64,000 nt of DNA from Rhodoferax sp. (GTDB lineage: Bacteria > Pseudomonadota > Gammaproteobacteria > Burkholderiales > Burkholderiaceae_C): NCBI RefSeq assembly GCF_030653815.1, contig NZ_JAURYQ010000019.1, forward strand, positions 1 to 64,000, given 5' to 3'. The notes beneath the pieces are model-generated. The model did no database searches, was not told the origin of the DNA, and worked only from the letters and a program-made list of their open reading frames with translations. Shown here piece by piece: positions 36,045-51,971 of the stretch (position 1 is the stretch's first letter; every line of letters starts with the position of its first letter). A program made the translations under genes and the position numbers.

Positions 36045-38861
36045 TCAGGCATGTTTTGCAATCATGCGCTGTAGTTGCGGTAGGCAGGAACCGCAGTTGG
36101 TGCCGCATTTCAGGCTGGCCTGCAGTGATGCCAAACGCTGCACTGGCGCTGCGGCACTTTGTGCCAGATGTTCGGCAATGGCAAGATCGGTCACGTTGAA
36201 GCAGGCGCACACCTGCTGCCCACGCGACACCACGGGCACCGGCGGCGTGGCACCTGGAATCAGCAGTGCCCGGCCATAGGAATGGGCGGGCAGGGCATCC
36301 TTGAGCAAAGTGGTGATCCAGTGCTGGGCGCGGGTGTCGCCGGCCAGCATGAAACCTTCCAGCACGGTTTGGGTGTCGGTCTCGACCAGTCGGGCCACCC
36401 GCTGCTGGCCGCGCTTGGGGTCGGAGTAGCGCAGTGCATCCGGACCCTGGAGCTGCAAGAGTTGTTCAATCTGCTCCAGCAGGCCCTGCGCCGGTGCGGC
36501 ATGGCGTGCGGCGCGAAACAGCAGGCCGCTACGCTCACCCTGGCTGCTGTTGGCCGCGCTGGCAAACGGGACACAGGTGGCAAAGTCAAATTGCGCCATC
36601 AGTTTTTGCAGTGCACGCCGGGCGGCGATTCCTTGCGAATCCGGCAGCCAGGCCACGGCCAGAAGCTGCCAGGGCAGTTCGGCTTTGAGGATTTTGACGG
36701 GCGTATGTTTGAACTCGGGTTGTTTTGAATCCGGGCAAAAAACACCGCTGGTCAGCGCATTGACCCCGGCCAGGCGTTCACCCTGGGCGCTTTGGCCGCT
36801 CAGGAATTCCTCGCCCCAGTGCATGGCTATGAAGGCCTGATTCAAGCCGATCTCGTGGCTGGCCTGGGCCGGCACCAGCACCGAGCCGCGCACGCTGGTG
36901 AGGTGGACCAGGTCGCCGTCCTCGAGCTGGCGCTGCGCCATGTCTTGCGGGTGCAATTGCACACAGGGTTCGCTGACATGACCAAACAGCTGGCCCAGCG
37001 TCCCGGTGCGGCTCATGCCGTGCCACTGGTCGCGCAGGCGGCCGGTGGTAAGCGCAAACGGGTAACGCGCACTGCGCGGTTCGGCAACCGGCTGGTAAGC
37101 CACGCTGATGAAACGCGCCTTGCCGTCAGCGGTTGGGAAAATACCGTCCTCATAAAGCCGTGCCCGGCCCTGGGTTTGGCCTTGTGGCATGGGCCATTGT
37201 TGGGGTGACTCTTCCAGCAGGGCGTAACGCATGCCCGTGATGTCGAGGTCTCGGCCACGCGTGGATTCGCGATGCTCCAGCCAAATCGCTTCCGGCGTGC
37301 TGTAGGGGAAGAGGGGGGTCAAGCCCGCCTGGGTCAGTGTGCGCTGCGGCTTCAGCAACACTTCGAGGCGCTGGGCAAAGTCGGTGGCAATGTGCCAGTC
37401 GTGGCGCGACTCACCGGCGGCTGGCACCGCAGCGCGGACGCGGCTGATGCAGCGCTCGCTGTTGGTGACCGTGCCTTCTTTTTCACCCCAGGTGCTGGCT
37501 GGCAGCAGCAGGTCGGCATAGGTGCAGGTGGCGGTGCTGGCGTAGGCTTCCTGCACCACCACAAACTCGGAGCGCGCCAAAGCCCGGCGCACCAGGGTCT
37601 GGTTGGGCATGGACTGTGCCGGGTTGGTGCAGGCAATCCACAAGGCCTTGATCTCGCCGTCAGCGGCGGCCTGGAACATTTCCACCGCCGTTTTTCCGGG
37701 CTGCCCGGGGACACTTGGCACACCCCATAGCGCGGCAATTTCAGCGCGATCGTCGGCATTATTCAGGTCACGGTGGCCACTGAGCAGGTTTGCCATGCCG
37801 CCCACTTCACGCCCGCCCATGGCGTTGGGCTGGCCAGTGAGTGAAAACGGTCCGGCACCCGCTTTGCCGATTTGCCCAGTGGCCAGATGCAGGTTGATGA
37901 GCGAGGTGTTTTTGGCGGTGCCGCTGCTGGACTGGTTCAAGCCCTGGCAGTACAGACTCAGCGTCGGTGTGCGGGCCTGACCGCTGGCCGAAATGCCGGC
38001 AAACAGGCGGGTGGCTTCAAGCAGCGCCGCCTGGCTGATGCCGCAGGTGCGCGCCACCAGCTCTGGGGTGCAGTCGCGCACCAAGGCTTTGAGCGCATCA
38101 AAACCGTTGGTATGGGCGGCCATGTACGCGGCATCAAGCCAGCCCTCCCACAGCATCAGGTGCAGCATGCCGTGGTGCAGCATGACATCGGTGCCGGGCT
38201 GAATTTGCAGGAACAGGTCCGCCATGTCCGCGGTGTCGGTGCGACGCGGGTCGACCACCACGATCTTCAGGGTCGGATTGGCGCGGCGGGCGTCTTCGAT
38301 GCGCCTGAACAGAATCGGGTGGGCGTAAGCGGTGTTGCTGCCGGTGATGAACAGGGTGCCAGCGTGCTGGACGTCGTCATAACACGCGGGTGGTGCGTCC
38401 ATGCCCAGGCTTTGCTTGTAGCCCGCCACGGCGCTGCTCATGCACAGGCGCGAATTGCTGTCGATGTTGTTGCTGCCGATCAGGCCCTTGGCGAGCTTGT
38501 TGAAGACGTAATAGTCCTCGGTCAGCAGTTGGCCCGAGATGTAAAAGCCCACGGCGTCGGGGCCGTGTTGTTGGATGATGCCGGCAAAACGGCTGGCTGC
38601 CTGGTCAAGCGCGCTGTCCCAACTGATGCGTTGCGCCGGCGCGCCGCGCTGGCTGCGCTGCATCGGGGAAAGCAATCTTGCCTGGGCCGTGATGTCGGCT
38701 GTGGCCGTGAGGTGCAGGCTGGACCCCTTGGTGCACAGGCGCCCGAAGTTGGCCGGATGGTCCTGGTCGCCACGCACGCCGGTGATCTGGTTGCCGCGGG
38801 ACTCAATGATCACGCCGCAACCGACGCCGCAATACGGACAGGTGGACCGGGTGTCTGTCAT
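36045..38861 (-). CDS. nasA: Assimilatory nitrate reductase catalytic subunit
   Basis: Cytoplasmic Mo-bis-MGD enzyme reducing nitrate to nitrite for assimilation. 938 residues: N-terminal 4Fe-4S CPYCGVGCGVIIE...CTKG, molybdopterin domains (LCMSSAVAGYK, WEGWLDAAYM), molydopterin-binding C-terminal domain, and a BFD-like [2Fe-2S] domain at the end (CACFNV...CGTNCGSCLPQL, about residues 885-930) that may take electrons directly from a reductase. Last gene of the nrtABD-nirBD-nasA operon. Confidence 0.94.
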   Translation of the reverse strand: MTDTRSTCPYCGVGCGVIIESRGNQITGVRGDQDHPANFGRLCTKGSSLHLTATADITAQARLLSPMQRSQRGAPAQRISWDSALDQAASRFAGIIQQHGPDAVGFYISGQLLTEDYYVFNKLAKGLIGSNNIDSNSRLCMSSAVAGYKQSLGMDAPPACYDDVQHAGTLFITGSNTAYAHPILFRRIEDARRANPTLKIVVVDPRRTDTADMADLFLQIQPGTDVMLHHGMLHLMLWEGWLDAAYMAAHTNGFDALKALVRDCTPELVARTCGISQAALLEATRLFAGISASGQARTPTLSLYCQGLNQSSSGTAKNTSLINLHLATGQIGKAGAGPFSLTGQPNAMGGREVGGMANLLSGHRDLNNADDRAEIAALWGVPSVPGQPGKTAVEMFQAAADGEIKALWIACTNPAQSMPNQTLVRRALARSEFVVVQEAYASTATCTYADLLLPASTWGEKEGTVTNSERCISRVRAAVPAAGESRHDWHIATDFAQRLEVLLKPQRTLTQAGLTPLFPYSTPEAIWLEHRESTRGRDLDITGMRYALLEESPQQWPMPQGQTQGRARLYEDGIFPTADGKARFISVAYQPVAEPRSARYPFALTTGRLRDQWHGMSRTGTLGQLFGHVSEPCVQLHPQDMAQRQLEDGDLVHLTSVRGSVLVPAQASHEIGLNQAFIAMHWGEEFLSGQSAQGERLAGVNALTSGVFCPDSKQPEFKHTPVKILKAELPWQLLAVAWLPDSQGIAARRALQKLMAQFDFATCVPFASAANSSQGERSGLLFRAARHAAPAQGLLEQIEQLLQLQGPDALRYSDPKRGQQRVARLVETDTQTVLEGFMLAGDTRAQHWITTLLKDALPAHSYGRALLIPGATPPVPVVSRGQQVCACFNVTDLAIAEHLAQSAAAPVQRLASLQASLKCGTNCGSCLPQLQRMIAKHA

Positions 38862-38883: not shown

Positions 38884-39267
38884 TCAGGCGCAAGCCGTGC
38901 GGCGCGACGGGCCTGCCATCGGGCGCGTCAGGTCGGTGGCATGACCTGTTAATTCAGCAGTTTTCAGGAACACCTGCCCATCTGTGCATTTGACCTCGAA
39001 GCGCGGCGTGCAGCCTTCATCGGGCGCGGCCGCCTGACCGGTGCACAGACCAATCGTCCAGTTGTGCAGGGGGCAGGCCACGCTGGTGCCAAACACAATG
39101 CCCTGGCTCAGCGGCCCACCCTTGTGGGGGCAACGGTCGAGCAGGGCAAACACCCCGTTTTGGTCGTTGCGAAATACTGCCACGTCCAGGCCCTGGGGGC
39201 GAGCCACGCGCCGCGAGCCCAGCACCGGAATGTCGTCGATGCGGCAGATGGGGGTCCATTCATTCAT
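38884..39267 (-). CDS. nirD: Nitrite reductase (NADH) small subunit
   Basis: A 127-residue Rieske-like NirD. CPHKGGPLSQG and CPLHNW supply the [2Fe-2S] Cys/His ligands. It is 11 bp after nirB. A short tail of about 20 residues beyond the domain (TRPMAGPSRRTACA) is low in conservation. Confidence 0.93.
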   Translation of the reverse strand: MNEWTPICRIDDIPVLGSRRVARPQGLDVAVFRNDQNGVFALLDRCPHKGGPLSQGIVFGTSVACPLHNWTIGLCTGQAAAPDEGCTPRFEVKCTDGQVFLKTAELTGHATDLTRPMAGPSRRTACA

Positions 39268-39278
39268 GTTGGTTTTCC

Positions 39279-41744
39279 TTAAACGCTCAGGGCGTCAAAC
39301 TGGCGGGTGTCGACGGCGGCCTTGTCAAACTCGAACCAGGGGTCGGGCTCGCCATCCAGGGCGAATTGCAGGTTTTCCCAGAGTTCCTTGCGCCCGGCGT
39401 GGTCTTCGACAATGCGTTTCTTCACGTAGTCCAAGCCGACGCGGTTGACGTAATGCACGGTGCGCTCCAGGTACCAGCCCTCGGTGCGGTACAGCTCGCA
39501 GAAAGCGCCGGTGTACTCCAGCACCTCGGCGGCGGTCTTGACCTTGACCAGAAAGTGCGCCACTTCGGTCTTGATGCCGCCGTTGCCCGCCACATACATC
39601 TCCCAGCCGCTGTCGACACCGATGATGCCGACGTCCTTGATGCCGGCCTCGGCGCAATTGCGCGGGCAACCGCTCACGGCAAATTTCACCTTGTGCGGCG
39701 CGTACATGCGCCACATGGCGCGCTCCAGGTCCTTGCCCATCTGGGTGCTGTCCTGCGTGCCCATGCGGCACCACTCACTGCCGACACAGGTCTTGACGGT
39801 TCGCAGCGCCTTGGCGTAGGCATGGCCTGAGGGCATGCCGATGTCTTTCCAGACTGCCTGCAGGTCTTCCTTTTTGACGCCCAGCAGGTCGATGCGCTGG
39901 CCGCCGGTGACCTTGACGGTCGGGATTTTGTATTTGTCCACCACATCGGCAATGCGGCGCAGTTCGCTGGCCGTGGTCTCGCCACCCCACATGCGCGGGA
40001 TCACGCTGTAGGTGCCGTCCTTCTGGATGTTGGCGTGGGAGCGCTCGTTGATGAAGCGGCTTTGCGGGTCGTCCTTGGCCAGTTTGGGCCAGGTGCTGAG
40101 CAGGTAGTAGTTGATGGCAGGGCGGCACGACGCGCAGCCGTTGGGCGTTTTCCATTCCATGAAGGCAAACACGTCGGCAATTTTGAGCAGCTTGTTGGCC
40201 TTGATGGCATCGCGCACCGCCTGATGGCCGTGCTCGGTGCAAGCGCACATGGCCTTGGTTTTGGGGGTGACCGAGTAGTCGGCACCCGCGGTGAAGATCA
40301 GCAATTGTTCGACCAGCCCGGTGCAGGAGCCGCAGGAGGCGCTGGCCTTGGTGTGTTTGCGCACCTCGTCCAGTGTGAACAGGCCTTTTTCACGGATCGT
40401 CTTGCAGATGGTGCCCTTGGTCACGCCGTTGCAGCCGCAGACCTCGTCGCTGTCTTTCATGGCGGCGGCCTTGTTGTGGCCCTCGTGGCCGGCATCACCG
40501 ATGTTGGATTCGCCGAACATCAGCTTGTCGCGAATGTCGGCAATCGGACGGCCATCGCGCAGCAGCTTGAAGTACCAACTGCCGTCAACGGTGTCGCCGT
40601 ACAGGCAGGCGCCCACTAATCTGTCGTCTTTCAGCACCAGCTTCTTGTAGACCCCGCCCTTGGGGTCGCTCATGATGATTTCCTCAAAACCTTCGCCACC
40701 GGCAAAGTTGCCAGCTGAAAAAAGGTCAATGCCGGTGACCTTGAGCTTGGTCGAGGTCAGCGACCCGACATAGCGGCCAATGCCGAACTGCGCCAGGTGG
40801 TTGGCTGCCACCCTGGCTTGCTCGAACAACGGCGCGACCAGTCCGTAGGCGGTGCCGCGGTGGGCGGCGCATTCACCCACGGAGTAAATGCGGGCGTCGG
40901 TGATGGTTTGCAGCGTGTCGTTGACCACAATGCCCTTGTCGCAGTGCAGTCGCATCGATTGGGCCAGTTCCACGTTAGGACGAATGCCGACCGCCATCAC
41001 CACCAGGTCGGCGGGGACCTGTGTGCCGTCCCTGAACTTGATGGCGGTGACCCGGCCCTCCGACCCACCGACCAGCGCCTGGGTTTGTGCCCCCATCAGG
41101 AAACGCAGACCGCGTTCTTCCAACGATTTTTGCAGCAGCTTGCCCGCCACTTCGTCGAGTTGGCGCTCCATCAGTGTTGGCTGGACATGCACCACGCTGA
41201 CCGTCATGCCGCGGCGCATCAGGCCGTTGGCGGCTTCCAGGCCCAATAGACCACCACCAATCACCACCGCGTGTTGGTAGGTGGTCGCCGCCTCGATCAT
41301 GGTCTGGGTGTCGGCAATGTCGCGGTAGGCAATCACGCCCTGCAGGTCTTTGCCGGGGATCGGCAGCATGAAGGGGTTGGAGCCGGTGCACAGCAGCAGG
41401 CGGTCGTATTCGGTGCTGATCGTTTCCCCGGCAGCGTTTTGGGCATGCACCAGCCGTTTGACGCGGTCCACCGAGGTCACACGCCAGCCGGCGTGCAAGG
41501 TGATGTGGTTGTCGCTGTACCACTCGTAGGCGTTCAGCACGATCTCGTCAAGCGTTTGTTCACCGGCCAGCACGGGCGACAGCAGGATACGGTTGTAGTT
41601 GGGGTGCGGCTCGGCGCCAAAGACGGTGATTTCGTACAGCTCCGGCGCGATTTTGAGCAATTCTTCCAGTGTGCGGACACCGGCCATGCCGTTGCCGACC
41701 ATCACGAGTTTCATTTTTGCTTTGGGTTCAATGCGCATGTCCAT
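39279..41744 (-). CDS. nirB: Nitrite reductase (NADH) large subunit
   Basis: Sirohaem/4Fe-4S enzyme reducing nitrite to ammonium with NADH. 821 residues: FAD/NAD domains (VMVGNGMAGVRTLEEL, VVIGGGLLGLEAA), two BFD-like [2Fe-2S] segments (CGCNGVTKGTICK, CGSCTG), and the sirohaem region with Cys motifs CVGSEWC and CPRNCAEAG. MDMRIEPK is chosen as start, one base after nrtD's stop; Met codons 2 and 10 residues downstream are alternatives. Confidence 0.94.
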   Translation of the reverse strand: MDMRIEPKAKMKLVMVGNGMAGVRTLEELLKIAPELYEITVFGAEPHPNYNRILLSPVLAGEQTLDEIVLNAYEWYSDNHITLHAGWRVTSVDRVKRLVHAQNAAGETISTEYDRLLLCTGSNPFMLPIPGKDLQGVIAYRDIADTQTMIEAATTYQHAVVIGGGLLGLEAANGLMRRGMTVSVVHVQPTLMERQLDEVAGKLLQKSLEERGLRFLMGAQTQALVGGSEGRVTAIKFRDGTQVPADLVVMAVGIRPNVELAQSMRLHCDKGIVVNDTLQTITDARIYSVGECAAHRGTAYGLVAPLFEQARVAANHLAQFGIGRYVGSLTSTKLKVTGIDLFSAGNFAGGEGFEEIIMSDPKGGVYKKLVLKDDRLVGACLYGDTVDGSWYFKLLRDGRPIADIRDKLMFGESNIGDAGHEGHNKAAAMKDSDEVCGCNGVTKGTICKTIREKGLFTLDEVRKHTKASASCGSCTGLVEQLLIFTAGADYSVTPKTKAMCACTEHGHQAVRDAIKANKLLKIADVFAFMEWKTPNGCASCRPAINYYLLSTWPKLAKDDPQSRFINERSHANIQKDGTYSVIPRMWGGETTASELRRIADVVDKYKIPTVKVTGGQRIDLLGVKKEDLQAVWKDIGMPSGHAYAKALRTVKTCVGSEWCRMGTQDSTQMGKDLERAMWRMYAPHKVKFAVSGCPRNCAEAGIKDVGIIGVDSGWEMYVAGNGGIKTEVAHFLVKVKTAAEVLEYTGAFCELYRTEGWYLERTVHYVNRVGLDYVKKRIVEDHAGRKELWENLQFALDGEPDPWFEFDKAAVDTRQFDALSV

Positions 41745-41745
41745 G

Positions 41746-42582
41746 TCAGGCCGCCTTTTCAACATGTGCTTGCCGGGTGTACAAAAAGTCGATCACGGCT
41801 TTGCGGTATTTGAGGTACTGCGGGCTGTCGGCGAGTTGCACCCGGTTGCGCGGGCGTGGCAGGTCGACGCTGAGCACTTCGCCAATGGTGGCGGCCGGGC
41901 CGTTGGTCATCATCACGATCTTGTCGGACAGCAGCACGGCTTCATCCACATCGTGCGTCACCATCACCACCGTGCTGTGGGTGCGCGCCACAATTTCCAG
42001 CAGTTCGTCCTGCAGTTTGGCGCGGGTCAGGGCGTCGAGGGCGCCAAAGGGTTCATCCATGAGCAGTACCTTGGGCTCCATCGCCAGCGCGCGGGCAATG
42101 CCGACGCGCTGCTTCATGCCACCCGAGATTTCTCCCGGGCGTTTTTGTGCGGCGGGGGTCAAGCCCACCAGTGCCAGCGCGGCATCGGTGCGCGCCATGA
42201 GCTGGGCCTTGTTTTCGCTGGCCGCGCCCGTGGTTTTGTTGGCGGCGCCAAAGACCCGCTCCACCCCCAGATAGACGTTCTCGAAGCAGGTGAGCCAGGG
42301 CAGCAGGGAGTGGTTTTGAAACACCACAGCGCGGTCCGGACCGGGGCCGGCAATTTCGCGGTTGTCACACAGCAGGTGGCCTTGGGTGGGCGTGGTCAGG
42401 CCGGCGATCAGGTTGAGCAGGGTGGACTTGCCACAACCCGAGTGGCCGATCAAGGCCACAAACTCGCCCTTGGCCACTGTCAGATGGATGTCCCGCAGCG
42501 CACAAAACGGGCCTTTTTTGGTTTTGAAGGTTTGCTCGACACCGACGATGTCGATGAACTTGCTGGTCTGGTTGGCATGCAT
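41746..42582 (-). CDS. nrtD: Nitrate ABC transporter ATPase
   Basis: ATPase for nitrate/nitrite import, 278 residues, with GHSGCGKST, signature ISGGMKQRVGIARAL, LLMDEPFGALD and MVTHDVDEA. The ATG giving MHANQTSKF is preferred to one six codons upstream. It follows nrtB across a 93-bp spacer with hairpin repeat copy B and precedes nirB by one base. Confidence 0.93.
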   Translation of the reverse strand: MHANQTSKFIDIVGVEQTFKTKKGPFCALRDIHLTVAKGEFVALIGHSGCGKSTLLNLIAGLTTPTQGHLLCDNREIAGPGPDRAVVFQNHSLLPWLTCFENVYLGVERVFGAANKTTGAASENKAQLMARTDAALALVGLTPAAQKRPGEISGGMKQRVGIARALAMEPKVLLMDEPFGALDALTRAKLQDELLEIVARTHSTVVMVTHDVDEAVLLSDKIVMMTNGPAATIGEVLSVDLPRPRNRVQLADSPQYLKYRKAVIDFLYTRQAHVEKAA

Positions 42583-42617
42583 GATGGTCCTTTGAGGCAA
42601 AAGTTGATGCGACTGGT

Positions 42618-42675: not shown

Positions 42676-43599
42676 TCAGGTTTTGACTTCTTCAAAAGTG
42701 AAGGCGGTTGCGATCTTGATCAGGGCGTACTCCAGAATCAGCCCGACGATGCCAATGACAAAAATGGCGATGATGATGTTCTTGACGTTCAGGTTGTTCC
42801 ACTCGTCCCAGACCCAGAAGCCAATGCCCACACCGCCGGTCAGCATCTCGGCGGCCACAATCACCAGCCAGGCGGTACCCACGGCGAGGCGCACACCGGT
42901 CAGCATGTAAGGCAGCACCGAGGGGAACAGGATCTTGGTGACGATCTTCCACTCACTCAAGTTCAGCACCCGCGCCACGTTCATGTAGTCCTGCGGCACG
43001 CGTTGCACACCCACCGCGGTGTTGATGATCATGGGCCAGATCGAGCAGATAAAAATGGTCCAGATGGCGGCCGGGTCAGCCCCCTTGAACACCAGCAGGC
43101 CAATGGGCAGCCAGGCCAAAGGGGACACCGGGCGCAGCAGGCTGATCAGCGGGTTGAACATGCGGCTCAAAAACTCAAACCGGCCAATCGCAAAGCCTGC
43201 CGGAATACCCACCGCAGCGGCCAGCCCAAAACCCAGCGCCACACGCTCCAGCGACATCAAAATGTTCCAGCCCAAACCCTGGTCATTGGGGCCGTTGCGG
43301 TAGAACGGGTCGCTGAAAATCACCACCGCTTGCTTGAAGGTCTCAAAGGGCGACGGGATGCTGCTGGCGGTGCTGATCGACACCAGCGCCCAGATGCCGA
43401 TCAGCAGGCTAAACCCGAGCACCGGTGGCAACACGGCCAGCCAGAGGCCACGCCAGTCAAGCGCCTGGCTCGGGGCTTTGGCCTTTTCCGCAGCCGGGGT
43501 GGCCTGCGCCTTCTCGATGGCGACCGGAGCCATCACGGGTGCTTTGGCGGCTTCGGCATTTTCGTGTTGCAGCGAGGGATTAAAAACAGCACTGACCAT
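42676..43599 (-). CDS. nrtB: Nitrate ABC transporter permease
   Basis: Inner-membrane permease of 307 residues with about six hydrophobic segments after an Ala/Pro/Lys-rich N-terminal tail of about 45 residues. The BPD-type EAA loop is VPQDYMNVARVLNLSEWKIVTKIL. It is 25 bp after nrtA. Confidence 0.93.
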   Translation of the reverse strand: MVSAVFNPSLQHENAEAAKAPVMAPVAIEKAQATPAAEKAKAPSQALDWRGLWLAVLPPVLGFSLLIGIWALVSISTASSIPSPFETFKQAVVIFSDPFYRNGPNDQGLGWNILMSLERVALGFGLAAAVGIPAGFAIGRFEFLSRMFNPLISLLRPVSPLAWLPIGLLVFKGADPAAIWTIFICSIWPMIINTAVGVQRVPQDYMNVARVLNLSEWKIVTKILFPSVLPYMLTGVRLAVGTAWLVIVAAEMLTGGVGIGFWVWDEWNNLNVKNIIIAIFVIGIVGLILEYALIKIATAFTFEEVKT

Positions 43600-44869: not shown

Positions 44870-44900
44870 GGCAGTTTCCTTTACAGGTGGGTGGGCAAAA

Positions 44901-44970
44901 CAAACAAAAAAAAGGCGTCCTCACAGGGTTCGCAACGTGTGACACGTTGCGAACCCGTGGGGACGCCTTT
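44901..44970 (-). terminator. Leader terminator/attenuator before nrtA
   Basis: On the minus strand GGCGTCC-type arms (44961-44970 with 44911-44920) and an inner perfect 15-bp stem (44942-44956 with 44926-44940) form a long hairpin, followed by a U-run (complement of 44901-44912). It would stop transcription before nrtA unless prevented. Confidence 0.9.
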
Positions 44971-45005
44971 GTCCGGATCAGACCGGAATCACCCGCCGTT
45001 GGGTG
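44961..45005 (-). promoter_or_regulatory. ANTAR-target double hairpin (NasT binding)
   Basis: P1 is CACCC-AACGGC-GGGTG (45005 to 44990). P2 is GGAC-AAAGGC-GTCC (44974 to 44961). Both hexaloops have A at position 1 and G at position 4, the described ANTAR signature. P2 overlaps the 5' arm of the terminator, so the two structures exclude each other. Confidence 0.82.
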
Positions 45006-45045
45006 GTACCGGTCAAACGACCATTACTGGTCTTGTTAATTTATA

Positions 45046-45061
45046 AGCAAGCTGTGTGCCA
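45046..45061 (-). promoter_or_regulatory. Sigma54 promoter of the nitrate assimilation operon
   Basis: Minus-strand TGGCACACAGCTTGCT matches TGGCAC-N5-TTGCW with GG-N10-GC. Transcription would start near 45035, giving a leader of about 165 nt to nrtA. Confidence 0.85.
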
Positions 45062-45164
45062 GCTTGATTGATGCGCGAGATTGCTATAAATTCAGTAGTA
45101 CTGTTTGTTATGAGTGGGACTGACTGGCGCATTCAAGCGTGCATTCACTTGGCTTGTGTGGTCC

Positions 45165-45181
45165 TGCACTGTATTTGTGCG
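45165..45181. promoter_or_regulatory. NtrC-type enhancer site
   Basis: TGCACTGTATTTGTGCG contains GCAC-N7-GTGC, the NtrC core. It is centred about 138 bp upstream of the predicted start, a typical enhancer distance, and lies just after the nasT stop codon. Confidence 0.6.
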
Positions 45182-45191
45182 GCGCACCAAT

Positions 45192-45839
45192 TCAGCCCAG
45201 CAAGTCGGCCACATCGAGCATGCGCTGCGCCACGTCCGCCAGTTTCAGGCCCTTGTCCATTGCCGTCTTGCGCATTTTCCTGAAGGCCTCTTCTTCGCTC
45301 AAGCCTTGGCGCTGCATCAGCAGACCCTTGGCGCGGTCGATCAGCTTGCGGTCCTTGAGTTCGGCGCTCAGTTCATCGCGCTCGTTTTGTGTGCTGGCCA
45401 GGGTCTGCAGCAGGGCCTGTTCGTGCTCGAAGCGTGCCAGCGCCACGTCCAGTATCGGGCGAATGCGCTCCGGCGAAAGACCGGCCACGATGTAGGCCGA
45501 GACCCCGGCGGCCACGGCCTGCTTGACATGCCGGGTATCGTCATCGTTGGTGAACATCACAATCGGGCGGCGCTCGTCGCGCGTGGCCATCACCACATGC
45601 TCCAGCGCGTCGCGGGCATCGCTTTCGGCGTCGACAATGATCAGGTCGGGTTGCAGCTGCGCGAGGCGCTCGGTCAGGAACACATCAGCGGGCAGGGTGG
45701 CGATCAGGTTGAAGCTGTTTTCCAGAAGCCCGATGCGCAGGCTGCGCGAGCGATCCACCTGGCGAATGGCTTGATCGTCCTGCGGATCAGCGATGTCCAG
45801 GTCGGGTGCGACAACAACAATACGAAGACTGGGATTCAT
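45192..45839 (-). CDS. nasT: NasT-type ANTAR antitermination regulator
   Basis: A 215-residue response-regulator-like protein. N-terminal pseudo-receiver (phospho-acceptor position in DLIIVDAESDARD; the usual Lys near AYIVAG is absent), coiled linker, and C-terminal ANTAR domain (KLIDRAKGLLMQRQGLSEEEAFRKMRKTAMD, about residues 160-190). It should bind the double hairpin just downstream and prevent termination. No NasS sensor gene is adjacent. Confidence 0.9.
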   Translation of the reverse strand: MNPSLRIVVVAPDLDIADPQDDQAIRQVDRSRSLRIGLLENSFNLIATLPADVFLTERLAQLQPDLIIVDAESDARDALEHVVMATRDERRPIVMFTNDDDTRHVKQAVAAGVSAYIVAGLSPERIRPILDVALARFEHEQALLQTLASTQNERDELSAELKDRKLIDRAKGLLMQRQGLSEEEAFRKMRKTAMDKGLKLADVAQRMLDVADLLG

Positions 45840-46279: not shown

Positions 46280-46984
46280 TTATTGGGCGCCGTAACCCAG
46301 CAGCTTCTTCACATCCAGGATCCGGATTTCACGACGGTCGATGGTGATGAGTTGTCGGGCTTCGAGCTCATGCAGCACGCGTGAGAAATACTCGGGCGTG
46401 AGCGACAGGCGTGAGGCGATGGTCGCCTTGCTGGCGGGCAGGGACACAGTCAAGGTATGCTGACCGCCAGTGGTGTCCATTTCCACGTCGCGCAGCAAGT
46501 AACCAATCAGGCGCTGCATGCCGTTTTGCAGGGCATAGGCTTCGACATCCTGAACCAGGCTGTGCAGGCGCCTGGAAACACCTGCCAGCATGTGCAGTGC
46601 AAAGTGGGGGTCCTGTTCGATTTCATCGATCACGCCGCGTTTGCTGACATTGACCAGCACCGTATCAACCAGCGCTTGCGCGTTGAGAATGTAGGGCTTG
46701 TTCAAAAACACCAGCGCCTCGGCAAAACTTTGCCCTGGGCTGATGATCTCAATGACTTTTTCCTGGCCGGCTGGTGACACCACAAACAGCTTGACCTGTC
46801 CGTTGAAGACGATGTGAAAGGCCTCGCAGGCCTCGCCCACGCTGAAAATCATGTCGCCCTTGGCGTAATTCCGGATCTGGCAGCTTTTGGCGATGCGCGC
46901 GAGCTCATCCGGGGACAAACCACTGAACAAGGGTGAGCCCGCCAGAAAGCGCGGCATGTCAAAAAATTGCGTGTCCAGCGTCAT
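46280..46984 (-). CDS. Crp/Fnr-family transcription regulator (Dnr-like)
   Basis: A 234-residue regulator: cyclic-nucleotide-like domain (AKGDMIFSVGEACEAFHIVFNGQVKLF) and HTH domain with ASRLSLTPEYFSRVLHELE. The E-x2-S-R pattern in the recognition helix fits FNR-type TTGAT half-sites. It lacks the N-terminal Cys cluster of FNR, so it is more like Dnr/Nnr, which respond to NO via heme. It is the last gene of the nar-type operon, two bases after the preceding gene. Confidence 0.9.
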   Translation of the reverse strand: MTLDTQFFDMPRFLAGSPLFSGLSPDELARIAKSCQIRNYAKGDMIFSVGEACEAFHIVFNGQVKLFVVSPAGQEKVIEIISPGQSFAEALVFLNKPYILNAQALVDTVLVNVSKRGVIDEIEQDPHFALHMLAGVSRRLHSLVQDVEAYALQNGMQRLIGYLLRDVEMDTTGGQHTLTVSLPASKATIASRLSLTPEYFSRVLHELEARQLITIDRREIRILDVKKLLGYGAQ

Positions 46985-46986
46985 GG

Positions 46987-47397
46987 TTATTGCAGCATGA
47001 TGGCGCTGCCCGAGGTGTCAAAGGCGATCATGTTGTCGAGTGCGCCCAGTTTGACGGACTCCACCATGCGCTCCAGTGTTTGTTCGACGTCGGTGCTGCT
47101 GGGTGGCTTGCCGTTGCTACCCGACAGGGAGGCGACAAACACCACGTGCCATTGGCTTTGGAACTGGCCGGACTCCTGCTTGAGCGCGGCAAAGCTCTGG
47201 ATGTCGTCGGGCGACTTGTCGGCGACCATGGCTGGCACCAAGGCACCGCCGTGACCGGCTTCAAAGTCCTGGCGTTGTTGCGGTGTGCAGTCGTCGGGCA
47301 ACTCGGCGCTGGTGAACACCATCAGCAGGCGTTGCGGTTGTGCCTGCTGGCGTGCCGCCTGCAGCAGGTCGTCAAAAGTGTCAATGTGGATGGTCAT
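46987..47397 (-). CDS. Conserved protein of unknown function in the nar operon
   Basis: A 136-residue soluble protein, IDTFDDLLQAARQQAQPQRLLMVFTSAELP at the start. Relatives occur in Comamonadaceae, sometimes misnamed as a ribonucleotide reductase subunit; nothing in this sequence supports that. No motif for catalysis or metal is visible. It overlaps the carbonic anhydrase gene by ATGA and lies two bases before the Crp/Fnr gene, so it is certainly co-transcribed. Confidence 0.8.
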   Translation of the reverse strand: MTIHIDTFDDLLQAARQQAQPQRLLMVFTSAELPDDCTPQQRQDFEAGHGGALVPAMVADKSPDDIQSFAALKQESGQFQSQWHVVFVASLSGSNGKPPSSTDVEQTLERMVESVKLGALDNMIAFDTSGSAIMLQ

Positions 47398-48110
47398 GGT
47401 GTGGATTGGGTGTTGTAAGCGGAATCGATCTCATTGAACATGGGTTCAGACAAATGCTCAGCGTAGGGGCCGTGACCGCTGTGCGAGGCCACGGAGGCCG
47501 GAATGAATTGTCCGCTATTGACATCAAAGACATGGATCTCGCCGTCTTCAATGACATAGTGCCAACCATGCAGCGTCATGAGGCCAGCTTCCACCTGGGC
47601 GCGCACCATGGGGTAGCCCATGAGCCGCTCCAGCTGCAAGACCACCGCGCGCTGCTCGGTGCGGCGCAAAGCCTCCTCTGTGACCTGCACCGGCAACACC
47701 GCTTCACGGCCCAGTTCCAGCCAGGCGATCAGGTTTTTGGCCTGGGGATTCACCTCTTCGTAGAGGGCACGGATGCCGCCGCAATGGCTGTGGCCACACA
47801 CAATGATGCGTGACACCTTGAGATTGAGCACGGCGAATTCAATGGCAGCCGAGGTGCCATGAAACCCGGCCGAGCCGTCATAGGGTGGCACAAAGGCGCC
47901 CACATTGCGCACCAGAAACAGCTCGCCCGGACCCATGCCGGTCAGCATGTAGGGCACCAGACGCGAGTCCGAGCAACCGATGAAAAGAATGGTGGGGTGC
48001 TGACCCTCGGCAATCAGGGTCTGGAACTGCTCCTGCACACCGGGGAAGGTGTGGTCGTGAAAGCGCCGGATGCGCGCCAGCAATTCATCGGGCACTACAG
48101 CTGTGGGCAT
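47394..48110 (-). CDS. Beta-class carbonic anhydrase
   Basis: Zinc enzyme interconverting CO2 and bicarbonate, 238 residues. Zinc ligands: GCSDSR (Cys, Asp-Arg dyad) and CGHSHCGG (His, Cys). About twelve bases separate it from the parvulin gene. Location at the end of a respiratory nitrate reductase operon is unusual; a role in CO2/pH control during nitrate respiration is inference. Confidence 0.92.
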   Translation of the reverse strand: MPTAVVPDELLARIRRFHDHTFPGVQEQFQTLIAEGQHPTILFIGCSDSRLVPYMLTGMGPGELFLVRNVGAFVPPYDGSAGFHGTSAAIEFAVLNLKVSRIIVCGHSHCGGIRALYEEVNPQAKNLIAWLELGREAVLPVQVTEEALRRTEQRAVVLQLERLMGYPMVRAQVEAGLMTLHGWHYVIEDGEIHVFDVNSGQFIPASVASHSGHGPYAEHLSEPMFNEIDSAYNTQSTP

Positions 48111-48122
48111 CTTTGTCTGGAC

Positions 48123-48917
48123 CTATTGCACCAGCGGTGTATCAGCGGCTTCCAGGTCCACACCCTGAACGCTTGCTTCGCCTGCCAGCAGGCTCAGGTA
48201 CTGGCGCAGTGCCGTGACAAAAGTCTGCTGTTTCAGCGTCATGCGTACGGCGCCATGGACCGAGTCAAAGGCTTGGGCCACGCCGGCCTCACGGCCCATG
48301 ACCTCCACCACATGCAGGCCGAAACGGCTGTGCACCAGGCGTGGCAGCACGCCCACTTCGGCGTGGCCAAACAACTCCTTGGCAAACTCGGGCGCGCAGT
48401 CGCTGGTGGTCAACCAGCCCAGTTGGCCGCCCTCGGCGCCGCTGGGGCAGTTGGACAAGGTCTTGGCAGCCTTGGCAAACGCGTCGTCGGTGTTGCTACT
48501 GTCAAAGCAGCGCACATTGAGCAGCGTGCCTTCGGCTTGCTTGCGCAGGGCGTTCAGGTCCACGCCGGGTGTCACTGCGAACAGGATATGGCGCACATGG
48601 ACGCGTTCACCCGTGGTGTAGTGGCTGGCTTGGTTGGCCGCATGATGGCGACGGCAGGCTTCTTCAGACGGCTCGGGAATCAGCAGTTCCTGGTCCAGCA
48701 AGGTCTCGATGGCGATGGACGCCGCCTCGCTGGCCACCCCATCGGTGCTGGCGGCGTCACTGGCGTCCAGCAGACCCTTGTGCATGGCGGCCTGACGCAG
48801 CAATTCGGCGTAAGCGCGCTGGCGCAACTCATCGGCCGTCAGGACATCGCCGGCCTTGTGCAGCGCCACGCCGTTGATGTTGGCCACGGGGGTTTCGGTG
48901 ATCGAAGTAGATTGCAT
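48123..48917 (-). CDS. Parvulin-type peptidyl-prolyl isomerase of the nar operon
   Basis: A 264-residue NifM/PpiC-like protein: helical N-terminal chaperone part, then a parvulin domain (VHVRHILFAVTPG, GGQLGWLTTSDCAPEFAKELF, HSRFGLHVVEVMGRE; about residues 120-235). No signal peptide is seen, so it acts in the cytoplasm, probably on NarGH folding. The ATG at 48917, 10 bp after narI, is chosen; an in-frame start inside narI is not supported. Confidence 0.88.
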   Translation of the reverse strand: MQSTSITETPVANINGVALHKAGDVLTADELRQRAYAELLRQAAMHKGLLDASDAASTDGVASEAASIAIETLLDQELLIPEPSEEACRRHHAANQASHYTTGERVHVRHILFAVTPGVDLNALRKQAEGTLLNVRCFDSSNTDDAFAKAAKTLSNCPSGAEGGQLGWLTTSDCAPEFAKELFGHAEVGVLPRLVHSRFGLHVVEVMGREAGVAQAFDSVHGAVRMTLKQQTFVTALRQYLSLLAGEASVQGVDLEAADTPLVQ

Positions 48918-48927
48918 GTTAGCCACC

Positions 48928-49662
48928 TCAAACACCTGCGCCGGGGTGGCGTGGCTGATTTTGTCCGGCGGGCACATTCAGGCGCCGGGCCCGCACCACC
49001 TGGTAGGGGCGCATCAGGTAAGTGACCGAGGCAAAGCCGCTCCAGACGTGCACCAGGCGGGTGAAAGGGAAGATGAAGAAGATCGTCATACCCAGGAACA
49101 TGTGCGCCTTGAAGATGAAGCCGGCATCGGCCAACAGTTCAACGGCGCCCGGCTGGAACGTCACGATGGCTTGCGCCCAGCCCGCCAGTTTCATCATCAT
49201 GCTGCCGTCCAGGTGTTGCCCCGACAGCGGCACAGTGGCCAAACCCAGCGCCAGTTGCAGCCACAGCAGCACCAGCAGCATGATGTCGCTGGTTTTGGAG
49301 TTGATGCGGATGCGCGGCTCGGTCAGGCGGCGGTGCAGCAAAATGGTGACACCGATGAAGCCCAGCAAGCCGGCAATGCCGCCGCTGATCATGGCCATGA
49401 GTTGTTTGTCACCGGCACTGACGAAGTGCTCATAAACAAAGTGCGGTGTCAGCATGCCGAAGGTGTGGCCAAAGAACAGGAACAGCACGCCAATGTGGAA
49501 CAGGTTGCTGCCCCAGCGCAGTTGGCCCATTTTCAGCATTTGCGACGAGTCGCTTTTCCAGGTGTACTGGTCGCGGTCGAAGCGGATCAGGCTGCCGAGC
49601 ACGAAGACGACGAAGGCGATGTAGGGGTAGACGCCAAACAGGAGGTAGTCGAGGGTGTTCAT
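48928..49662 (-). CDS. narI: Respiratory nitrate reductase gamma subunit (cytochrome b)
   Basis: Membrane anchor with two b hemes that oxidises quinol. 244 residues, five membrane helices; haem-ligand His occur in NLFHIGVLFLFFGH, and KAHMFLGMTIFF...TRLVHVWS. It overlaps narJ by ATGA. Its C-terminal tail is rich in Arg, Asn and Pro. Confidence 0.95.
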   Translation of the reverse strand: MNTLDYLLFGVYPYIAFVVFVLGSLIRFDRDQYTWKSDSSQMLKMGQLRWGSNLFHIGVLFLFFGHTFGMLTPHFVYEHFVSAGDKQLMAMISGGIAGLLGFIGVTILLHRRLTEPRIRINSKTSDIMLLVLLWLQLALGLATVPLSGQHLDGSMMMKLAGWAQAIVTFQPGAVELLADAGFIFKAHMFLGMTIFFIFPFTRLVHVWSGFASVTYLMRPYQVVRARRLNVPAGQNQPRHPGAGV

Positions 49663-50378
49663 AGTGGGGCTCCAGCAGTTGCGGCTGCGCTTTGACGTGG
49701 TTTGGCCGCATCGGTTTTAACAAAATGAATGGGTTGGGCTTGGTCCGGCTTGGTCTGCCCCTTGACGGAGCAACCATCAAATACCACCGGTTCTTCCCAG
49801 CTGGTGTCAAGCGGCTCATCGGCCACGATCTTGACCGGATGCGCCTTTTCGCCGCTGAGTTCCAGCAAGGCCCCGAGCACGCTGGCGTAGGGGCTGTTGC
49901 GCTGTTGCAGGGCGTTGAAAATGGCATTGAAAATGTGCGCCATCTCGCCCAGGAAGGCGCGTGCCTCCTTGGGAGGCTGGGTCGAGACGAATTCAAGCAC
50001 CACCGGCAGGTAGTCCGGCATTTCATCAGGGCCGAGGAACAGGCCGGCCTTTTCGTAGGTTTGTGCCAGGTCGATCATGGCCGGGCCACGGTCGCGCGAG
50101 TCGCCATGCACATGTTCGAACAGGTGCAGCGAGGTGGCGCGGCCGCGGTCAAAGACTTCGACGTACTCGGCCTCGTTCTCAAGCGCGTTGCCGCGTGCCA
50201 GGCCGCTGATGAGTGCGTCAAGTTCTTCCAGGCGCGCCGGGGCGATGGCTTTCTCGGACAACAGCGCCTGGCGCATGTCGTCGAGGTCGCCGCGCAGTTG
50301 CGCATCGGGGTAGGACAGCAGTCGCGCCAGAACGCGCAGGCTCAGCGACGCCGGGACGGGAGTTGAAAAGAGGGCCAT
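49659..50378 (-). CDS. narJ: Nitrate reductase assembly chaperone NarJ
   Basis: Dedicated chaperone for insertion of the molybdenum cofactor and membrane attachment of NarGH. 239 residues, helical, with LARLLSYPDAQLRGDLDDM and EHVHGDSRDRGPAMIDL. The ATG two bases after narH's stop is chosen. A tail of about 60 residues (ending KPRQSAAATAGAPL) exceeds the family core. Confidence 0.93.
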   Translation of the reverse strand: MALFSTPVPASLSLRVLARLLSYPDAQLRGDLDDMRQALLSEKAIAPARLEELDALISGLARGNALENEAEYVEVFDRGRATSLHLFEHVHGDSRDRGPAMIDLAQTYEKAGLFLGPDEMPDYLPVVLEFVSTQPPKEARAFLGEMAHIFNAIFNALQQRNSPYASVLGALLELSGEKAHPVKIVADEPLDTSWEEPVVFDGCSVKGQTKPDQAQPIHFVKTDAAKPRQSAAATAGAPL

Positions 50379-50380
50379 GA

Positions 50381-51904
50381 TCAGACCTCCGCCTGGATTG
50401 GAATGGTGCGGCGTTTGCTGCCACCAAACAGGCTGGCTTCGCTGGCACCGTCGGAGCAACCATTGCCGAACGAGAAACCGCAGCCCCCACGCACGTCAAA
50501 GGTGTTCTCGGCGTATTCGCGGTGCGTGCTGGGGATGACAAAGCGGTCCTCGTAGTTGGCAATCGCCATCACCTGGTACATCTCCTCGACTTCCAGCGTG
50601 CTCATCTGCACCTGCTCCAGCGCTGCCATATTGGGTTTGCCATCCACGTGTTTGCCACGCTGGTAGGCGCGCATGGCGAGCATGCGCTCCAGCGCCCGTT
50701 CCACCGGGAAGGTGTCGCCGGCTGTCAGCAAATTGGCCAGGTACTTGACCGGAATCCGCAGTTGCTTGACATCGGGGATTTCACCGTTGATGCCGATGTT
50801 GCCGGCGTTGGCGGCTGCGCTGATGGGCGACAGCGGTGGCACATACCAGACCATGGGCAGCGTGCGGTATTCGGGGTGCAAGGGCAGGGCGACTTTCCAT
50901 TCCACCGCCATTTTGTAGACCGGGCTGTTGCGGGCGGCTTCCATCCACTTGTCGGGAATACCGTCGGCTCTCGCCTGCTCAATCACTTTCGGGTCGTTCG
51001 GGTCCAGGAAAATGTCGAGCTGGGCCTGGTACAGGTCGCGGTCATGTTCCACGCTCGCGGCCTCCTGGATGCGGTCGGCATCGTACAGCAGCACGCCGAG
51101 GTAACGGATGCGCCCGACGCAGGTCTCACTGCACACCGTGGGTTGGCCGGCTTCGATGCGCGGGTAGCAGAAGATGCACTTTTCGGCCTTGCCGGATTTC
51201 CAGTTGTAATAAATCTTCTTGTAAGGGCAGCCGCTGATGCACATGCGCCAGCCGCGGCATTTGTCCTGGTCGATCAGCACAATGCCGTCTTCCTCGCGCT
51301 TGTAGATCGAGCCTGACGGGCAGCTGGCCACACATGCCGGGTTCAGGCAGTGCTCACACAGGCGCGGCAGGTACATCATGAAGGTGTTTTCGAACTGACC
51401 GTAGATGTCCTTCTGGATGTCGTCAAAGTTTTTGTCTTTGCTGCGCTTGGAGAACTCACCGCCCAGAATCTCCTCCCAGTTCGGACCCCAAACGATTTTC
51501 TCCATGCGCTTGCCGGTGATCAGGCTGCGCGGGCGGGCCGTGGGTGCCGCCTTGGACTCGGGCGCGGATTGCAGGTGCGCGTAGTCAAAGGTGAAGGGCT
51601 CGTAGTAGTCGTCAATTTGTGGCAGGTTCGGATTGGCGAAGATGCGCATGAGCAGCTTCCACTTGGCGCCCTGGCGCGGCTCAATGGCGCCATTGCTCTT
51701 GCGGATCCAGCCACCGTTCCATTTGTCCTGGTTTTCCCATTCTTTCGGGTAGCCAATGCCGGGTTTGGTCTCGACGTTGTTGAACCAGGCGTATTCCATG
51801 CCGGGGCGGCTGGTCCAGACGTTTTTGCAGGTAACAGAGCAGGTGTGGCAACCAATGCATTTGTCCAGGTTGAGCACCATGCCGATTTGTGCGCGAATTT
51901 TCAT
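50381..51904 (-). CDS. narH: Respiratory nitrate reductase beta subunit
   Basis: Iron-sulphur electron-transfer subunit of 507 residues. Four Cys groups: C16-x2-C19-x2-C22-x3-C26 (CIGCHTCSVTC), CEHCLNPACVASCP, CRGWRMCISGCP (third position Trp, as known for the 3Fe-4S cluster) and CIFCYPR...CSETCVG. It begins with MKIRAQIGMVLNLDKC. The 67-bp gap after narG contains hairpin repeat copy C. Confidence 0.97.
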   Translation of the reverse strand: MKIRAQIGMVLNLDKCIGCHTCSVTCKNVWTSRPGMEYAWFNNVETKPGIGYPKEWENQDKWNGGWIRKSNGAIEPRQGAKWKLLMRIFANPNLPQIDDYYEPFTFDYAHLQSAPESKAAPTARPRSLITGKRMEKIVWGPNWEEILGGEFSKRSKDKNFDDIQKDIYGQFENTFMMYLPRLCEHCLNPACVASCPSGSIYKREEDGIVLIDQDKCRGWRMCISGCPYKKIYYNWKSGKAEKCIFCYPRIEAGQPTVCSETCVGRIRYLGVLLYDADRIQEAASVEHDRDLYQAQLDIFLDPNDPKVIEQARADGIPDKWMEAARNSPVYKMAVEWKVALPLHPEYRTLPMVWYVPPLSPISAAANAGNIGINGEIPDVKQLRIPVKYLANLLTAGDTFPVERALERMLAMRAYQRGKHVDGKPNMAALEQVQMSTLEVEEMYQVMAIANYEDRFVIPSTHREYAENTFDVRGGCGFSFGNGCSDGASEASLFGGSKRRTIPIQAEV

Positions 51905-51921
51905 GTGTAACTCCTTATGTT

Positions 51922-51969
51922 TTGCGGGACAGACCGCAGCGACGCAGTCGCCAGCTCTGTCCTCAAACT
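51922..51969 (-). repeat. GGACAGA/TCTGTCC hairpin repeat, copy C (inverted)
   Basis: Reads TTGCGGGACAGACC...GCTCTGTCCTCAAAC, the reverse complement of copies A and B at both ends. It ends two bases from the narG stop codon. Confidence 0.85.
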
Positions 51970-51971
51970 AA

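Follow-up and report, generated by a model that had tools for sequence, protein, structure and literature searches.

The window, as we call the whole 64,000-nucleotide stretch of Rhodoferax sp. DNA analysed here, carries on its minus strand a nitrate-assimilation gene cluster in which a 322 nt spacer (45191-44870) separates nasT, ending at 45192, from nrtA, starting at 44869. A preliminary description of the spacer proposed that it holds an NtrC- and sigma54-dependent leader of the ANTAR antitermination type, raising the questions as to whether the operon that follows is controlled in this way and where a nitrate signal for NasT would come from. The features on which the discussion relies are as follows.

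45192-45839, minus strand: nasT, 215 aa, encoding an ANTAR antiterminator whose receiver domain is weak and probably degenerate
45165-45181, palindrome: NtrC-like site CGCACAAATACAGTGCA, centred near -138
45046-45061, minus strand: -24/-12 promoter TGGCACACAGCTTGCT, TGGCAC-N5-TTGCT (exact match; similar site in relatives' leaders)
45035, minus strand: predicted transcription start, deduced from the promoter position
45019-45032, minus strand: hairpin P0, GACC-AGTAAT-GGTC (folding, hairpin counts in relatives, covariation)
44981-45014, minus strand: hairpin P1, hexaloop AACGGC (folding, covariation in relatives)
44961-44974, minus strand: P2, antiterminator hairpin GGAC-AAAGGC-GTCC (exclusion against the terminator by folding)
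44906-44970, minus strand: intrinsic terminator, outer stem AAAGGCGTCC/GGACGCCTTT then eight T; its 5' arm overlaps P2
43625-44869, minus strand: nrtA, nitrate-binding protein
42676-43599, minus strand: nrtB, permease, by domains
41746-42600, minus strand: nrtC, ATPase, by domains
39279-41765, minus strand: nirB/nasB-type assimilatory nitrite reductase, large subunit (domains; name inferred)
38884-39267, minus strand: nirD, Rieske-type small subunit (domains; name inferred)
36045-38861, minus strand: nasA, assimilatory nitrate reductase (domains; name inferred)

NasT gives an ANTAR match of 78.7 bits in Pfam and a Response_reg match of 21.7 bits, which is below the curated cut-off of 30.2; the Pfam domain search found no NIT domain, and the protein thus has the receiver-like and ANTAR organization of a NasT and not the NIT-ANTAR fusion of NasR. 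It is the sole ANTAR match in the genome, and its gene lies just upstream of the spacer as originally described. The nearest nasT loci are in Rhodoferax-like MAGs, with up to 93% identity, and the host thus probably belongs to the Comamonadaceae. NrtA has a twin-arginine motif (SRRAVLQ) and an NMT1_2 match of 347 bits, and it matches the NrtA of PDB 2g29 with an E value of 4e-81. The interval from the nar (nitrate respiration) cluster to the nas (assimilation) cluster, at 46280-55784, includes three genes that all score under the NCBIfam cut-offs: one of Crp/Fnr type (nearest FtrB), one carbonic-anhydrase-like, and one encoding a NifM/PpiC-like isomerase.

Hairpins, terminator and promoter of the leader

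The ANTAR target motif is described, in the portions of the two accounts available to us, as a pair of hexaloops with A at position 1 and G at position 4 (A1 and G4) (PMC3369931), for which SELEX with NasR points to a C:G closing pair (PMC7496416). The leader contains two such six-nucleotide loops, in P1 and P2, both with A1, G4 and the C:G closing pair, and the claim that the spacer holds two hairpins of this kind is borne out by the presence of both in the relatives selected below. The arrangement CC-ANNGNN-GG, 18 nt, GGAC-ANNGNN-GTCC has a single exact match in the window, at 44961-45002; at up to three mismatches the P1-P2 pair pattern gives two matches against 1.39 expected.

The terminator's first ten bases fall within P2, so that the sharing of a 5' arm between the two holds as first described, and the clash is confined to the terminator's outer ten bp, the inner hairpin being compatible with P2. 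The predicted transcript of 166 nt folds 7.7 SD below shuffled sequences, compared with only 1.9 SD when it is ended before the terminator's 3' arm. In folding of the growing transcript the probability of P2 is 0.97-0.995 at lengths of 75-85 and 105-115 nt (until base 44921 is made), with an intervening drop to 0.62, 0.07 and 0.01 at 90, 95 and 100 nt because another pairing competes. Once the terminator's last arm is made P2 is gone: the complete terminator is favoured over it by 13.6 kcal/mol, and forcing P2, the check that the preliminary description had suggested, costs 13.6-13.9 kcal/mol. P2 and the terminator therefore exclude one another, and an ANTAR protein is encoded in the same genome, as expected for a dual-hexaloop ANTAR target.

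The promoter TGGCACACAGCTTGCT is the single exact match to TGGCAC-N5-TTGCW in the 64 kb window, and it contains GG-N10-GC. The -24/-12 promoter placed in the spacer is thus found there, at 45061-45046, and the leaders of relatives have a similar site; with one mismatch allowed, however, there are three matches in the window against 5.9 expected, so that the promoter is not significant by itself. The NtrC-like palindrome CGCACAAATACAGTGCA is one of two pattern matches in the window, against 1.64 expected. As this is the level of chance, the case for an NtrC site lies in its conservation: such sites, counted at up to two mismatches to a 12-position consensus anywhere within 250 nt upstream, are present in 59 of 103 leaders, against about 6.3 in shuffled sequences. 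The proposed NtrC-like site is therefore upheld as a pattern match at 45181-45165 with an above-chance presence in relatives, but the window alone lends it nothing beyond chance. Both calls use general NtrC and sigma54 consensus sequences. The two elements are singly at chance level in 64 kb, and it is the combination of the leader's parts, and its conservation, that carries weight.

Conservation of the leader in related genomes

To follow the leader in relatives we used a model (R1) built from 26 leaders and extending from P1 to the terminator. Forty-three related nasT loci were found, and 41 of these were searched with R1 (L054 and L055 being left out). Forward-strand matches of at least 30 bits are present in 34 of the 41, although 25 of the 34 are seed rows and four loci (L025, L040, L043 and L047) score only 30-33 bits. 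There is no match of 30 bits in the remaining seven (L020, L026, L030 and L050-L053); no nrtA was found in the L020, L026 and L030 loci. In eight loci 695-4549 bp separate nasT from nrtA, and the leader is nonetheless found a short way upstream of nrtA.

In wider searches, for which 'family' and 'class' are working groupings that may be broader than the NCBI family, R1 matches 189 of 398 family genomes at E ≤ 0.01 and 22 of 370 class genomes at E ≤ 1e-5, the host included in each; since a second match in the host genome, of 36.9 bits, falls on this terminator read from the opposite strand, weak matches elsewhere may be terminators only and 189 is an upper figure. Leaders of the same build also occur directly before nirB, in L015 (11726-11831), L096, L100, L104, L108, L110, L112, L118, L120, L121, L123, L125, L126 and L127. 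L015 and some genomes, G009, G179 and G182 among them, have the nirB leader in addition to the one before nrtA, and NasT may therefore control two operons there. At L225 (G114:C17:662093-662248) the ANTAR domain is part of a 515-residue reading frame whose long C-terminal part resembles a PilJ/NarX-type sensor by eye.

A set of 103 promoter-bearing leaders was assembled, 35 from nasT loci (the window included) and 68 from genome searches, with some species present twice; L092 was dropped, no promoter having been found in its stretch. Sixty were used for covariation analysis, after skipping 13 of odd build, seven identical copies, and 23 further leaders in which P0 or the spacing differs. Across these 60, 92.2% of cells pair against 81.4% in shuffles, and there are 111 two-sided changes against 33. 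The upper stem of P1 is 93.3% paired, with four of its five pairs changed on both sides, and the lower stem is 71.4% paired. The P1 loop has A1 and G4 in all 60; the P2 loop has G4 in all 60 and A1 in 50, with G1 in the other ten. The P2 stem is invariant, so covariation is silent on it. P2 was located by a pattern in which part of the loop and of the stem is fixed, and which none of the 90 leaders tried failed; this, together with the origin of all genome-search rows in model matches, makes the loop and stem figures lean towards conservation.

A hairpin at the predicted 5' end

P0, the third hexaloop in relatives and the failure to find NasS, discussed below, go beyond the preliminary description. 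P0 begins about 3 nt past the predicted start. Its loop in the window, AGTAAT, has A at position 4 in place of G4, and the hairpin folds as GACCA-GUAA-UGGUC with a GUAA tetraloop; with G4 gone, P0 is probably structural only in this genome.

A 4 bp hairpin is present at the P0 position in 96 of the 103 leaders, against 23.5 in shuffled sequences (largest 37), and a C-ANNGNN-G hexaloop in 54, against 0.19 (largest 1). R1 covers the end of the P0 loop and the 3' arm and may favour P0, so the 35 leaders from nasT loci, picked independently of the model, are of particular importance; P0 has A1 and G4 in 23 of them. The P0 stem is 99.6% paired in the 60 selected leaders, with three of four pairs changed on both sides, and five of the leaders left out of that set (L032, L089, L095, L102 and L120) keep an A1/G4 loop in P0. 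In the four nearest nasT loci (L013-L016) the loop is AGCGAT, which could also close as a tetraloop, and among class loci three consecutive hexaloops can be read by eye in three of 21 (L139, L140 and L148). Judged from these sequence comparisons, P0 is a near-universal stem whose loop is of ANTAR type in about half of the related leaders and not in the host.

It is quite conceivable, if somewhat short of an even chance, that P0 is not an ANTAR site, and that it acts as a stem stabilising the 5' end or as a DNA operator (GACC-N6-GGTC). The stem is more widely kept than the loop, and a tetraloop could form on the same stem in 29 of the 49 distinct P0 loops in hexaloop register, that of the window included. 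Within these 29, 12 carry A1 and G4 and eight are GNRA-like, but A1 with G4 predominates where the loop ends are unpairable (15 of 20). A1 occurs in 32 of the 49, G4 in 31 and both in 27, an association with a Fisher p of 4e-5, uncorrected for relatedness. A symmetric operator needs neither A1 nor G4, and the frequency of C-ANNGNN-G at this position also argues against such an explanation. P0 in relatives is perhaps an early landing site for NasT. In the EutV-RNA structure, according to the available part of that report, G4 stacks on a tyrosine, a single hexaloop may be the minimal site, and the dimer is proposed to engage the hexaloops singly, first P1 and then P2 (PMC8934654), a scheme in which a third, upstream site could be accommodated. 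A third hexaloop is thus relevant to the way in which ANTAR proteins are loaded onto an RNA as it is made, given that the EutV structure suggests the use of one hexaloop at once. No report of a three-hexaloop attenuator was found in the literature searched, which was in part incompletely accessible and largely excludes subscription papers.

Relationship to known leaders

The leader belongs to a known kind, of which the third hexaloop in relatives and the missing NasS are a variant. The nasF leader of Klebsiella oxytoca has a sigma54/NtrC promoter. It shares with the leader described here the pair of A1/G4 hexaloops, the C:G closing pair and the association with nitrate assimilation, whereas P0 has no counterpart in the part of the nasF account available (PMC7496416), and NasR senses nitrate itself through its NIT domain, which NasT lacks. 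The NasS-NasT system of Paracoccus denitrificans has in common a NasT-type protein, a leader between regulator and structural genes, and Ntr control (PMC3795266, PMC5424462). As far as the accessible text of these papers goes, it differs in that NasS is predicted to be cytoplasmic and is encoded with nasT, and in that the NtrC site studied is at nasT. The eut leaders recognised by EutV likewise have two A1/G4 hexaloops with P2 overlapping the terminator, but are governed by a two-component kinase and regulator in response to ethanolamine, and have two hexaloops per leader, a further single hexaloop being described for the sponge RNA EutX (PMC3369931, PMC8934654, each in the part available).

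No Rfam family matches the leader at its gathering score. Below that threshold, 44914-45073 matches RF00625 (P11) with 37.8 bits (gathering score 70) and RF03032 (narK RNA) with 27.7 bits (43.2). Membership of either is thus not indicated, yet both consensus sequences, like the leader, have a -24/-12-like box and a GAC-AAAGRC-GUC hexaloop. The RF03032 consensus can be read as a -24/-12 promoter with a GAC-AAAGAC-GUC ANTAR hexaloop behind it, and these elements occur in P11 together with a terminator; both look like leaders for NasT or NasR. Such a leader stands before a narK-like gene in L132/L244 and in L147. Across the host genome the narK model finds no further place better than an E value of 0.7. 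Four other sub-threshold families (three microRNAs and one antisense plasmid RNA) fall on the long terminator stem and were dismissed as chance matches.

NasS and the export motif of NrtA

The NasT of Paracoccus is sequestered by NasS and set free by nitrate, and this NasS is without the export signal of NrtA (PMC3795266, in the part available). A search of the host genome (98.3% complete) with NasS from the gammaproteobacterial locus L050 returned only NrtA, at 38% identity and 234 bits, and no cytoplasmic NasS is encoded with nasT here. With the same query 100 of 130 family genomes have a match at E ≤ 1e-30; no score exceeds 315 bits, and the top four (290-315 bits) are the NrtA proteins of NrtABCD transporters. 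In the class, scores above 400 bits occur in 12 of 187 genomes, one being the query itself and the rest scoring 404-531 bits. In L248 the neighbour of nasT is a diverged NasS-like protein with a score of just 249 bits, so that bit score alone cannot divide NasS from NrtA. Moreover, a nasS is listed close to a nasT in Burkholderia pseudomallei in the portion of that report consulted (PMC5524735); NasS may therefore occur elsewhere in the Burkholderiales, which counts against a general absence.

An RR pair is present in the N-terminal region of all 84 copies of the window type of NrtA, some species being represented twice. Seven of 91 NrtA rows had been set aside, four of them gammaproteobacterial, one frameshifted, and L069 and L124, which are without the pair. 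The export motif was judged by the RR motif and by reading; a hydrophobicity score was discarded, many rows being at a fixed fallback length. In Rhodopseudomonas palustris an 'nrtA' without a recognisable signal is in one operon with nasT, according to the accessible part of the account (PMC3223731), and this is what others would call NasS.

Absence of the motif where another transporter is used

NrtABCD-type nrtA genes (E ≤ 1e-110) occur in ten of 399 family genomes, and we have read the surroundings of all ten. In five, a NasT-type gene (46-73% identity to the window NasT) is followed by a leader match (only 29-34 bits in G314 and G187) and a window-type NrtA (48-69%); this protein lacks the RR motif in G002, G078, G765 and G314 and keeps it in G187. 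Three others (G043, G092 and G155) have NasR, with NIT confirmed in two and the third called from a 49% match to NasR, and no window-type NrtA in the stretch read; G358 and G318 have neither a clear NasT nor a window-type NrtA there. None of the ten, of which G765 is only 74% complete, has a match above 48% to the window type of NrtB, a protein about 60% or more identical among the window-type operons read.

Twelve class regions outside the family, picked mostly by NrtA or NasS matches, were also read. G541, G512 and G475 have a motif-less window-type NrtA beside nasT, followed by a NarK- or NrtABCD-type transporter, and in G512 and G475 the leader comes after the motif-less gene (28.5 and 33.8 bits), which therefore occupies the position of NasS. 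L249, L251, L254 and L255 have nasT, a twin-arginine (Tat) NrtA and NrtBC with no NasS in the stretch, as in the host, and in the three of these genomes included in the class NasS search the sole match is that NrtA. L248 and L253 have nasT with NasS, and L252 has NasR. L247 and L250 have a Tat-NrtA and no nasT in the stretch, and the L247 genome has a NasS-type match elsewhere on the contig.

Among NasT genomes that use another transporter, seven of eight NrtA proteins of the window type are thus without the motif, against none of 84, a difference with a Fisher p of 9e-10 that is uncorrected for relatedness, and for which adjacency to nasT and NrtBC was not confirmed for each of the 84. In a tree of 38 proteins all seven motif-less copies are within the Tat-NrtA clade, apart from four NasS-type rows (100/100), and the tree requires three motif changes, at least two of them forced by well-supported branches. 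A single loss was rejected, as one change suffices in 0% of 200 bootstrap trees of these 38 rows; an earlier tree of 54 rows without the three class rows had allowed one change in 70%. The tree is rooted for drawing only, and that the changes are losses is therefore something we infer.

We also considered that the motif-less copies are decaying genes. Their frames are intact, and an omega of 0.22 between L200 and L238 suggests purifying selection, if weaker than in the adjacent nrtA2 pair (0.06); however, relaxed selection is possible between L201 and L240, where omega is 0.72. In L208 (2592-4048; G133) an nrtA behind the leader is split over two frames, possibly through a sequencing error. 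L206 and L207 (G085 and G069) have a NasR-type regulator (NIT confirmed in L206), a leader of 47 and 37 bits respectively, and a window-type NrtA, and there the regulator seems to have been swapped with leader and transporter retained. NIT was found in the comparison proteins of L202, L203 and L206.

Proposed regulation and alternative explanations

We conclude that the leader is, with high probability, a sigma54/NtrC-started, NasT-controlled attenuator of the nrtABC-nirBD-nasA operon. The original proposal that its parts and their order match the ANTAR mechanism of nas leaders gains support from covariation, the exclusion of P2 by the terminator, the adjacent nasT and the tracking of nrtA by the leader. 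Under nitrogen limitation phosphorylated NtrC would bind at 45181-45165 and activate sigma54 polymerase at 45061-45046, and RNA polymerase would then transcribe P0, P1 and P2. In the default state the outer stem of the terminator is predicted to displace P2, with a stop at the U run near 44906; free NasT on the P1 and P2 hexaloops would keep P2, block the terminator and allow read-through into nrtA. NasT binds leader RNA in Paracoccus (PMC3795266, available part), and here NasT probably flips the RNA switch when nitrate is present, nitrate presumably releasing it from an inhibitor for which, with NasS not found, NrtA is the best candidate. In Paracidovorax (Acidovorax) citrulli, one of the Comamonadaceae, deletion of ntrC abolishes growth on nitrate, lowers nasS and raises nasT, according to the portion of the report available (PMC10052978); these effects are consistent with an independent NtrC-dependent promoter downstream of nasT, provided that the nasS of that report corresponds to nrtA as named in this work. 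That it does so is a guess; P. valerianellae (L031) has nasT, leader and nrtA, with no second nrtA-like match in the locus.

A simpler explanation is that the spacer holds an ordinary terminator and an nrtA promoter, with the hexaloops incidental, and the terminator is indeed the strongest single element and the promoter an exact match. The terminator is downstream of the promoter, though, the P1 loops are constant in the selected leaders (many of whose rows come from model matches and lean that way), the element stays close to nrtA in the eight loci with a distant nasT, and copies also precede nirB; we consider this explanation highly improbable. A more substantial alternative, which we nonetheless think rather unlikely, is that NasT is not nitrate-controlled in this lineage, being constitutive or acting by its amount, so that the leader adds a requirement for NasT to control by NtrC. 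It would account for a NasT consisting of ANTAR and a weak receiver only, without NIT, and for a genome in which NasS was not found and its sole homologue bears an export motif. However, permanent override would leave the terminator without purpose, and the leader is nevertheless widespread, even if weak and terminator-only matches are included in that count, and seven examined genomes with another transporter have a motif-less window-type NrtA beside nasT.

These observations lead us to suggest, tentatively, that in this lineage and several others NrtA doubles as the nitrate sensor of NasT and that, once uptake has passed to a foreign transporter (NrtABCD or NarK), NrtA is left without its export signal and turns into a dedicated NasS. 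On gene content this may be the best account of the missing NasS together with the repeated loss of the motif, though we hold it with less than even confidence. Against it, little of an exported protein is to be expected in the cytoplasm, the motif persists in G187, and NasT might have an unlinked protein as its sensor, or none. Tat substrates fold before export, which would provide a cytoplasmic pool of NrtA.

In the described systems NasT receives its signal from NasS, and here the only candidate is an exported transporter subunit; no case of a transporter protein doubling as the sensor of NasT was found in the literature searched, parts of which were available only in portions. If NrtA does serve in this way, uptake and sensing would be functions of one protein, and the leader would close a feedback loop on its own sensor. 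The motif-less copies would then represent a second, independent origin of NasS, and a transport protein would have become a cytoplasmic regulator more than once.
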